From Candidatus Kerfeldbacteria bacterium (GTDB lineage: Bacteria; Patescibacteriota; Patescibacteriia; SBBC01; CAIJZX01), in the NCBI GenBank assembly GCA_903825245.1, contig CAIJZX010000037.1, positions 1 through 51,907 on the forward strand: 51,907 bases of DNA. Reading direction: 5' to 3'. Under the pieces are notes generated by a model. It ran no database searches. It was not told where the DNA came from and saw only the letters and a list, made by a program, of their open reading frames with translations. Position 1 is the first letter of the stretch; each line of letters starts with the position of its first letter. Both the position numbers and the translations under genes were made by a program. Positions 1 to 16,873 of the stretch are shown here, one piece after another.

Positions 1-509
1 ACAATCTCGATGCTGACCGTGCGCACACCCCATTGCAGGGCGGCAGTTCGGGTGGGCATCCAGATATCAATACGACTCGAGCCCCACTTCGCGTTCATGC
101 GGTCGGAGACCGTGAACACTTTATCGCCGTAGTAGGCCGGGATTCGGACTTTCGTACCGAAGGCAATGCCGTTCATAGCGATAATACCGTCAGCGACTTT
201 CTCGCCCGAGGCGGTGGTAAATGGATCACCATCGCATTGGTCAACGGTCGAGGAGTAGGCGCTAGCCCGGACCGTCATGGATTTAGCAATGACGATTGGC
301 TTATCGGTAGGAGTCGGGAGTGTTGTCAGGGGGCCGGTGTTTTCTGTCGGTTGGTTTTGGACGATGACTGTGTAGCTATTTCCAGTACTGTCCGACGGAG
401 AAACGATTTGCGCTTGTGCCGTGATCGGAACAAGAATGTTCAGAATCAGGGCGGCGGTCACAACGATGAGGTAGCGACGCAGGCGCTTCAACTGCTTGCG
501 ACTGTACAT
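1..509 (-). CDS. 3D-domain / RlpA-like secreted protein, truncated at window start
   Basis: Hand translation of the minus strand from ATG at 509: MYSRKQLKRLRRYLIVVTAALILNILVPITAQAQ...MTVRASAYSSTVDQCDGDPFTTASGEKVADGIIAMNGIAFGTKVRIPAYYGDKVFTVSDRMNAKWGSRRIDIWM; signal peptide plus 3D-like motif. Open at the edge, so absent from the ORF track. Confidence 0.8.
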   Translation of the reverse strand, partial: MYSRKQLKRLRRYLIVVTAALILNILVPITAQAQIVSPSDSTGNSYTVIVQNQPTENTGPLTTLPTPTDKPIVIAKSMTVRASAYSSTVDQCDGDPFTTASGEKVADGIIAMNGIAFGTKVRIPAYYGDKVFTVSDRMNAKWGSSRIDIWMPTRTAALQWGVRTVSIEI

Positions 510-3570: not shown

Positions 3571-3665
3571 GAAGCCTCCTTTGGAATTTTCAAGGAATCG
3601 AAAGCTTCGTAGTTGTATACCTTTGCGATTCGGGTGTCAACTTTTTCATAGCAGTAAAAGGAGGC

Positions 3666-3694
3666 TTGAATATCACAAAGAAATACGCTACACT
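3666..3694 (+). promoter_or_regulatory. Promoter of the tRNA-Gly locus
   Basis: TTGAAT (3666-3671), 17-nt spacer, TACACT (3689-3694). Confidence 0.5.
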
Positions 3695-3706
3695 GTGACC
3701 GAACGT

Positions 3707-3793
3707 GCGGGTATCCCCGGCCTTAGCCGGGGCGAGCTCCTATCGGTATTATCTCGTCGTTCGACGGGATAGATGATCAGCTTTCTCCCGCTC
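3707..3793 (+). ncRNA. Degenerate tRNA-Gly-like 5' unit with hairpin insertion
   Basis: GCGGGTATC and ATCGGTATTA match tRNA-Gly, separated by CCCCGGccttaGCCGGGG; followed by hairpin TCTCGTC-GTTC-GACGGGA. Confidence 0.45.
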
Positions 3794-3848
3794 ACTACAA
3801 CTAAACATTAACTTGCGGGATCTCGCACGACGAAATCGTGTCCCGCGA

Positions 3849-3919
3849 GCGGGTATCGTATATCGGTATTACCTCAGCTTTCCAAGCTGATGAGAGGAGT
3901 TCGACTCTCCTTACCCGCT
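3849..3919 (+). tRNA. tRNA-Gly(TCC)
   Basis: Acceptor GCGGGTA/TACCCGC, anticodon arm CAGC-TTTCCAA-GCTG, T arm AGGAG-TTCGACT-CTCCT; CCA not encoded. Confidence 0.9.
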
Positions 3920-3963
3920 CGCGGGACGGAATTTTCAGTAGATATCAAAATGTCGTGCGGGAC

Positions 3964-4090
3964 AAGCTGATGAGAGGGTTGAGTCGGCATCCGGAGGATA
4001 GCGACTGAACTGCTTCAGTCGCGGCCGTCGAAACGAGCAGCGCATGTTTCGAAGGAACAGCGATGCCTAGGACTCTCCTTACCCGCTCCA
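3964..4090 (+). ncRNA. tRNA-Gly 3'-half-like sequence interrupted by a structured insertion, ending in CCA
   Basis: AAGCTGATGAGAGG ... GACTCTCCTTACCCGCTCCA repeats the tRNA-Gly 3' half with about 92 nt inserted in the T arm. Confidence 0.6.
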
Positions 4091-4153
4091 AGCGAATTTA
4101 CATTGAAAGAAAAACGTCGATCCTGTATTGATCGACGGTATTGTGTTTGATGC

Positions 4154-11901: not shown

Positions 11902-12039
11902 CTCCCGCTCCCAAAGCAGGCGCGCTTCCGGGGCGCCGCCTGTTCCTTCGAAACATGGCGTCGTCCGTCTCGATCGTCGGAAGCAAAGCAGTTTGCTTCC
12001 TGACCGTTACACGGTCACGATCTCGACCCAACTGCGCCA
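11902..12039 (-). ncRNA. Split tRNA-Pro-like copy carrying a structured insertion in the D loop
   Basis: ccaactgcgcca (12028-12039) and gctcccaaagcaggcgcgct (11907-11926) are exact repeats of tRNA-Pro segments, separated by 101 nt. Confidence 0.6.
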
Positions 12040-12057
12040 TTCATAAAATATCCACTG

Positions 12058-12130
12058 TCGGGGCGCCGAGACTCGAACTCGGGGCCTCCTGCTCCCAAAG
12101 CAGGCGCGCTACCAACTGCGCCACGCCCCG
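12058..12130 (-). tRNA. tRNA-Pro(TGG)
   Basis: Acceptor CGGGGCG/CGCCCCG, anticodon arm CCTGC-TTTGGGA-GCAGG; CCA not encoded. Confidence 0.9.
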
Positions 12131-12213: not shown

Positions 12214-12289
12214 TGGTGCGCCCGGAGGGAGTCGAACCCCCAACCTTCTGGTCCGAAGCCAGACACTCTATCCATTGAGCTACGGGCGC
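12214..12289 (-). tRNA. tRNA-Arg(TCG)
   Basis: GCGCCCGTAGCTCAATGGATAGAGTGTCTGGCTTCGGACCAGAAGGTTGGGGGTTCGACTCCCTCCGGGCGCACCA. Confidence 0.92.
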
Positions 12290-12318: not shown

Positions 12319-12408
12319 AGTCCCGGGCGTCGCTGTACCTATGATACATCGCGCCGCCCGTCTCGTCCCGCGAAAACTGAAGCAGTTCAGTTTTCTTGTA
12401 GACTCAAC
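12319..12408 (-). ncRNA. Structured RNA element upstream of tRNA-Arg (same family as 3978-4075 and 11927-12032)
   Basis: GTTGAGTC ... AAAACTGAA-CTGC-TTCAGTTTT ... TGTA-TCATAGG-TACA ... GGGACT. Confidence 0.55.
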
Positions 12409-12490
12409 TCTTCCGGTTCGTAGTCAGACAAATTTTCATTGGGCGGAGTTTATCCCGTCATCTGACGAGAGGCGCATGTGACGCGGAGCT

Positions 12491-16531: not shown

Positions 16532-16742
16532 GTGTAGGCGGATTTTCCCAAAAAAAAGACATATTGTCAACCCAACATCGCTTTTTCTTACGTATAACGT
16601 TTTTCGGTCGGCGCTGAGGTAGTCGAGTTTGTCTTTTTGCTAAAGTACAGTAGTATAGAGGCACGCGTGCCCCTCCCTCGGCGCACTCGGGATAAATTCC
16701 GCACAACCGATTGTTGAGGATATTTGTTCAGACTTGTGTAGC

Positions 16743-16817
16743 GGCCCTATAGTTCAACGGATAGAACACCGGACTTCTAAGCCGGTTATGGAGGTTCGAT
16801 TCCTCCTGGGGCCACCA
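16743..16817 (+). tRNA. tRNA-Arg(TCT)
   Basis: GGCCCTATAGTTCAACGGATAGAACACCGGACTTCTAAGCCGGTTATGGAGGTTCGATTCCTCCTGGGGCCACCA. Confidence 0.93.
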
Positions 16818-16833
16818 CACAAGTTTGATAAAA

Positions 16834-16873
16834 TAAGCCCGTGATGATGGTTCAACTCCATCCGGGGGCACCA
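16834..16873 (+). ncRNA. Orphan tRNA 3' half (T arm, acceptor 3' strand, ACCA)
   Basis: GATGG-TTCAACT-CCATC then CGGGGGC-ACCA; no adjacent 5' half. Confidence 0.5.

Follow-up and report, generated by a model that had tools for sequence, protein, structure and literature searches.

Many tRNA genes of one bacterial class sit inside a second, folded and broken tRNA, and a new family of structured RNA modules accompanies them. We describe this arrangement from a window of 51,907 nucleotides of a Candidatus Kerfeldbacteria assembly (contig CAIJZX010000037.1; genome G000 below), in which an intact tRNA-Gly(TCC) lies within an interrupted outer tRNA-Gly; the window case is one instance of a lineage-wide pattern. 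The hosts are tiny uncultured bacteria, Kerfeldbacteria and their relatives, the Kerfeldbacteria order being one that we take to be placed in class ABY1 of Patescibacteria. Our preferred explanation, to which we give about an even chance, is that the duplication of tRNA halves by structured mobile elements gave rise to a folded precursor that carries the working tRNA.

The pattern is invisible in databases because standard annotation shows the inner tRNA only. Bacterial tRNA genes have been described as lacking structural diversity apart from group I and group II introns (review, PMC4033280). No report of nested tRNAs in bacteria was found in the open literature, subscription papers and preprints aside, and the architecture is new within the literature searched. 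It makes testable the survival of insertion by a tRNA gene, the release of a tRNA from a tRNA-like fold, and the existence of non-decoding tRNA-like RNAs in Patescibacteria.

The nested tRNA-Gly locus

Positions 3707-4090 of the window form one predicted transcript, the ends of which make up a tRNA-Gly-like outer fold, here termed the shell, with an acceptor stem (GCGGGTA/TACCCGC), an anticodon stem, T-stem strands and an encoded CCA. The shell anticodon loop holds an inserted stem that is capped by the intact tRNA-Gly(TCC), and further inserts lie between the acceptor and D-arm pieces of the shell, before its anticodon stem and in its T-arm. The locus had been singled out in an earlier note made from the sequence alone, and every piece named there is present where it had been placed.

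All features of the locus lie on the plus strand. The shell begins with the 5′ acceptor strand GCGGGTA (3707-3713), which together with a following TC makes up GCGGGTATC (3707-3715) and which, as had been proposed, pairs with TACCCGC (4080-4086) in the MFE fold. There follow a first hairpin insertion, CCCGGCCTTAGCCGGGGCGAGCTCC (3716-3740), recognised from sequence and MFE fold; a D-arm piece, TATCGGTATTA (3741-3751), identical on sequence comparison to the nested tRNA; a second hairpin insertion, ATCTCGTC-GTTC-GACGGGAT (3751-3770), seen in the MFE fold; and the 5′ strand of the anticodon stem, ATCAGCTT, with the loop start TC (3776-3785), predicted by the MFE fold to pair with AAGCTGAT (3964-3971). 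The anticodon-loop insertion opens with a left arm (3786-3848; sequence and MFE fold), in which TCCCGC (3786-3791) could provide, with GCGGGA (3957-3962), the closing strands of the insertion, and in which TCCCGCGA (3841-3848) extends the acceptor stem of the nested tRNA by 8 bp (3841-3848 with 3919-3926), a lengthening that goes beyond the earlier description. Borders equivalent to this arm, TTC-TCCCG ... GGGACAAG, are present in the related genome G006, and similar ones in G002.

The nested tRNA-Gly(TCC), taken as the functional copy, occupies 3849-3920; both ARAGORN and Rfam (55.8 bits) call the intact tRNA that had been read within the locus, and it lacks an encoded CCA, which only the outer copy supplies, again as first read. 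Beyond the right arm of the insertion (3921-3962, with GCGGGA... and GTCGTGCGGGA; MFE fold), the shell resumes with the 3′ strand of its anticodon stem and the variable region, CAAGCTGATGAGAGG (3963-3977; sequence and MFE fold). It is interrupted in the T-arm by module B, a conserved and covarying RNA module of ~95 nt (3977-4071; 90.7 bits with covariance model R1, to whose training set this sequence belongs), and ends with the T-stem 3′ strand, the acceptor strand TACCCGC (4080-4086), the discriminator T4087 and CCA (4088-4090), together GACTCTCCTTACCCGCTCCA (4071-4090; from sequence). The outer 5′ piece reaches further than first described, running on through TCAGCTTTC to 3785, and the outer 3′ piece begins with CAAGCTGAT at 3963, so that the split falls in the anticodon loop: joined, the shell parts make a tRNA-Gly divided there (TTTC|CAA). 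The 3′ insertion of the shell, previously read simply as structured, is a recurring conserved module.

For the locus as a whole the MFE is -177 kcal/mol (z -7.3), a predicted fold that exceeds chance; in it the outer acceptor helix and the anticodon-stem strands are paired and the intact tRNA-Gly is placed on a long helix. The same fold is predicted in G002 (z -6.8) and G006 (z -7.5).

Shells across the lineage

A DNA search with reading of the loci found the Gly-TCC nesting at the orthologous locus in G002, of the same family, and in G006, of another family of the order. The G002 shell, GCAGGTA/TCCCTGC, is compensated at position 3 and broken at position 6, and that of G006, GCGGGTG/CACCCGC, is paired at 7/7 positions. 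The reading of the locus as a complete tRNA enclosed by an outer tRNA-like molecule that is itself interrupted holds for the window locus, and the arrangement recurs, with compensatory changes, in these two genomes. Conservation of the outer pieces among relatives is partial: G002 and G006 keep both, and at the Gly loci of G004 and G009 the 3′ piece alone is left, the 5′ half being gone. G001, a genome of the same genus that is 88% complete, gave no Gly-TCC match. The nesting is not an assembly artefact, since it lies on an 857,372-base contig of G002 and in several independent assemblies.

Nesting is found at many other isoacceptors across the Kerfeldbacteria order, and other families within the class show it at single tRNAs. 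Clean nested cases comprise Pro-CGG (L072, L097, L043, L039), Thr-GGT (L088, and L045 with three layers), Arg-GCG (L028, L033), Arg-TCG (L042), Val-GAC (L145) and Thr-TGT (L039), with Pro-CGG in G135 (L235) and Ala in G029 (L230) in further families of the class. For a census that included two outgroup genomes, tRNA lists were taken from Rfam searches and flanks were fetched; pairs of a tRNA with a foreign flank served as the null, and a score of at least 28 counted as a partial self-copy. Such copies adjoin 16/51 tRNAs in G000 (null 1.4%) and 24/47 in G002 (null 5.4%), and are two-sided at 6 and 14 of these, respectively. Corresponding values are 12/45 (null 1.6%), two-sided at 1, in G033, from another family of the class, and 7/39 (null 0.2%), two-sided at 0/39, in the outgroup G010, where all seven copies are 3′ ends only. 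Most breakpoints, both in the census and in the set of 19 loci described below, are found near the D-loop, the anticodon loop and the T-arm; in that set 5′ pieces were capped at 36 nt and 3′ pieces had to lie beyond position 30.

Pairing of the shell ends was assessed at 19 class I loci, the ends being identified by their resemblance to the nested tRNA and independently of pairing. Among their 133 acceptor pairs, 31 carry a change in the 5′ strand and 26 in the 3′ strand; both members have changed in 17 pairs, against 6.1 expected if independent (Fisher p=2e-7), and 17/17 of these are Watson-Crick, figures to be read with the loci having been picked by similarity, the shells being kin by descent and compensation possibly predating the interruption. 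Broken pairs number 13/133 in this automated set and arise by single-side changes; CCA is in register in 9/19 shells. Ten hand-checked loci, some of which overlap the 19, agree with the covariation. Moreover, orthologous shells differ by compensated pairs both for Gly (GCGGGTA/TACCCGC and GCGGGTG/CACCCGC) and for Pro-CGG (CGGGGTA/TACCCCG and CGGGGAT/ATCCCCG), which, if the interruption is ancestral, suggests that change took place after it.

These compensated pairs weigh against a reading in which the loci are decaying debris, where tRNA duplications and palindromic (REP/RPE-like) insertions pile up at tRNA genes, the outer halves have no role, and their pairing is a relic of an outer copy that still functioned as a tRNA. 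We regard this as somewhat unlikely. The half-lost shells of G004 and G009, tandem unnested shells at L062 and L035, the genome-wide dispersal of CCCGCACC..GGTGCGGG palindromes and the hairpin insertions that the rnpB of the order also bears are all in keeping with debris; the double compensatory differences between orthologous interrupted shells and the pairing of every one of the 17 double acceptor changes are not, and loss would be expected from small genomes. A full shell is in any case not indispensable, since one half is missing at some loci, namely the Gly loci of G004 and G009 and the Gln-CTG locus of G002, where mainly a 3′ part of the shell is left.

Could the outer copy instead be an intron-containing tRNA, with the inserts, nested tRNA included, spliced out so that each transcript yields two tRNAs? 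The TTTC and CAA exons restore the anticodon loop exactly in the Gly-TCC shells of G000 and G002, the G002 Pro-CGG and G000 Arg-GCG shells are also restored, and module B occupies one precise D-loop position in many tRNAs. However, the G006 Gly shell falls short of one loop base, the G002 Thr-GGT shell is unrestored and the Pro-CGG shell of G007 has no anticodon arm; the ARAGORN intron modes (-i/-io) do not call the Gly shell of the window and read the G006 Thr-TGT shell as having anticodon TAT; and the isoacceptor is already supplied by the nested copy. Rfam cmscan gave no intron family to E=10 over 3600-4150, or to E=3 over four other loci, and neither at gathering score nor at permissive E-values did Rfam return group I introns or anything else besides tRNA. 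The RtcB ligase is encoded in 1/10 genomes only, and splicing by RtcB was rejected on its absence from the other 9/10. A mature outer tRNA, as the earlier note had left room for, is consequently the weaker part of that note: the window exons fit, but no intron option calls it and other shells are unrestored. We consider the intron reading very improbable, and the outer RNA appears not to be, in general, a decoding tRNA restored by splicing. Intron-containing, split and permuted tRNA genes (in archaea and eukaryotes, with group I introns in some bacterial tRNAs) share with these loci an interrupted tRNA gene and pairable halves, whereas the insert here is a complete tRNA of the same isoacceptor, a group I core is lacking, and the anticodon is not generally restored.

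A proposed folded precursor read from the shell promoter

The earlier note had placed a promoter, TTGAAT-17-TACACT, before the shell. It is present at 3666-3694 on the plus strand (TTGAAT 3666-3671, TACACT 3689-3694); a generic scan misses it because it matches only 8/12 of the E. coli consensus, but it fits the motif of tRNA promoters in the clade. That motif, TTGNNN-16..18-TA(C/T)NNT, chosen after inspection of plain tRNA genes and scanned over 160 nt upstream, precedes 14/20 plain tRNAs of the family and 11/19 shells, and lies between shell and nested tRNA in 1/19 cases. A generic promoter score over the 50 nt before shells showed no difference. To judge from the positions of the clade motif, the shell stands at the original gene position, and the nested tRNA is most likely served by the predicted shell promoter.

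Under the folded-precursor explanation that we favour, a single transcript would start just before the shell, which would fold through its separated 5′ and 3′ parts by way of the acceptor stem, anticodon stem and T-stem, forming, in place of the shell anticodon loop, a long helix tipped by the complete tRNA-Gly(TCC). The nested copy would be the tRNA that works in translation, and the shell would not decode. Selection for pairing would hold the halves together, most likely because this single precursor houses the outer ends, the promoter of the original gene and a nested tRNA whose fold is left undisturbed. As a benefit of the shell we propose that it joins promoter and ends and keeps the halves from pairing with the nested tRNA, which RNase P and 3′ processing would then free. 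The RNase P RNA (rnpB) was found in 8/10 genomes, and absence of RNase P as a reason for the stems was rejected on this account.

The precursor resembles tmRNA in that its ends make a tRNA-like fold round a long insert; the insert here, however, is a tRNA and not an mRNA-like domain, and the acceptor is that of the local isoacceptor. Neither ARAGORN nor Rfam called a tmRNA at the window locus.

Module B, other inserts and their possible origin

Among 20 copies of module B, 94.1% of cells pair, double changes occur in 17/23 pairs, a level reached by 0/500 shuffles, and the loops are invariant; the module matches no Rfam family. By covariance model it occurs in 47/292 genomes of the class, with up to 13 copies per genome, and a same-strand tRNA lies within 150 nt of 22/30 fetched matches, a sample that includes training loci. 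Module B is a new structured RNA module family favouring tRNA genes. In genomes of named species its exact pattern was found at three places in one Candidatus Kerfeldbacteria contig, and single pattern matches in unrelated taxa are taken as chance.

Alternatively, the shell may be a separate functional RNA, stable, CCA-ended and non-decoding, perhaps aminoacylated, with a regulatory or structural role and with modules such as B binding protein or RNA. Of the shell, the acceptor, the encoded CCA and the T-stem strand are preserved best; the loops of module B do not vary and its pairs covary strongly; and L035 in G002 holds three tandem shells without a nested tRNA. Against this, insert content at the same tRNA varies widely between genomes and some shells have lost a half. 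We judge it improbable. A bolder proposal, still unlikely in our estimation, is that the shells form a new class of CCA-ended non-decoding tRNA-like RNAs that are processed as tRNAs, are recognised through module B, and either act in trans or gate the freeing of the nested tRNA.

As for the origin of the loci, small structured mobile elements would insert in tRNA loops (D, anticodon, variable/T) and duplicate part of the tRNA on one side. Each insertion with one-sided duplication would place the element between an intact tRNA and a half copy, and duplications on both sides would give the order half, element, whole, element, half, which is the nested state. In the outgroup-order genome G010, non-coding elements of ~110 nt follow tRNAs and have on either side direct repeats, 32-88 nt in length, that begin in the T-loop and extend into the trailer; at L159 (tRNA-Val, minus strand) the element of ~110 nt lies between two direct repeats identical at 88/88 nt, from T-loop into trailer. 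These repeats suggest insertion with target duplication. A mirror case is L239, where nucleotides -7 to +37 of a tRNA-Pro are repeated before a module B in the anticodon loop and the whole tRNA follows. At the window locus the aligned 3′ copy is 18 nt long and reaches no further than the discriminator; since Kerfeldbacteria 3′ copies mostly stop at CCA, without the longer repeats of G010 type, the duplication step is borrowed from what a relative shows.

Integrative elements that target tRNAs through tyrosine integrases likewise integrate in tRNA loops, so that they come to lie between a whole tRNA and a partial copy of it, and the G010 elements, flanked by a direct repeat of part of the tRNA, resemble insertions of that type. 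The inserts here are, in contrast, ~100-170 nt long and non-coding, and at that length cannot encode an integrase; without exception, the partial copy corresponds to the tRNA at the site, and 5′-half copies occur as well. A Y1/RAYT transposase is an uncertain candidate for the general mover, Y1 transposases being present in 6/10 genomes only and none in G000. The repeats downstream of E. coli tyrT (rtT RNA) carry the tRNA-Tyr 3′ end with CCA and are known for one tRNA operon. They are matched here by tRNA 3′-end copies with CCA downstream of tRNA genes, but they are one-sided and not nested, whereas the present pattern involves many isoacceptors and is class-wide.

The palindromes CCCGCACC..GGTGCGGG are dispersed over 46 sites in 9/10 genomes (reversed control 0), and 4/9 of those in G002 lie near tRNAs. 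This arm is absent from the window Gly locus, whose arms are TCCCGC/GCGGGA. Arms round nested tRNAs resemble one palindrome split by the tRNA (e.g. L039, L145), and a single split palindrome is poorly explained by two independent insertions. Rickettsia palindromic elements and REP/RAYT palindromes are short palindromic insertions in gene loops, RNA genes included, and the dispersed palindromes outside tRNA loci in the present genomes are like them; we know of no nested functional host-gene copy, and of no covarying broken host copy, associated with those elements.

Elsewhere in the window, partial self-copies lie near tRNA-Pro(TGG), tRNA-Arg(TCG), tRNA-His and tRNA-Arg(TCT). Downstream of the intact tRNA-Pro (12057-12130), a second tRNA-Pro(TGG) copy at 11902-12040 (minus strand) is interrupted in its D-loop and carries module B (11928-12028). 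Another module B, at 12322-12409 (minus strand), stands just upstream of tRNA-Arg(TCG) (12214-12289), the acceptor stem of which is lengthened by the inverted repeat AGCAGTTGGT/ACCAACTGCT. Shell-like 5′ and 3′ pieces (16667-16673 and 16841-16873) flank tRNA-Arg(TCT) (16743-16817), the 3′ piece ending in CCA.

Among the three tandem tRNA-like shells at L035, one carries module B in its T-arm, and ARAGORN calls no intact tRNA there. Not every module B adjoins a tRNA: at L243 one stands at the 3′ end of what looks to be a ribosomal protein L11 gene, and at L246 another is surrounded by REP-like repeats, of which genome G290 has about 10 copies. Yet another recurrent module (GAATCGAAGGGC ... CTGCCAGTGGCAG ... 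GCCCAGGGACGATTC) lies between an intact tRNA and a CCA-bearing 3′-end copy at L037, L058, L089 and L103. Finally, hairpins inserted in peripheral loops make the RNase P RNA genes of the order larger, with match spans of 451, 625, 573 and 514 nt at L128, L130, L132 and L134, respectively.
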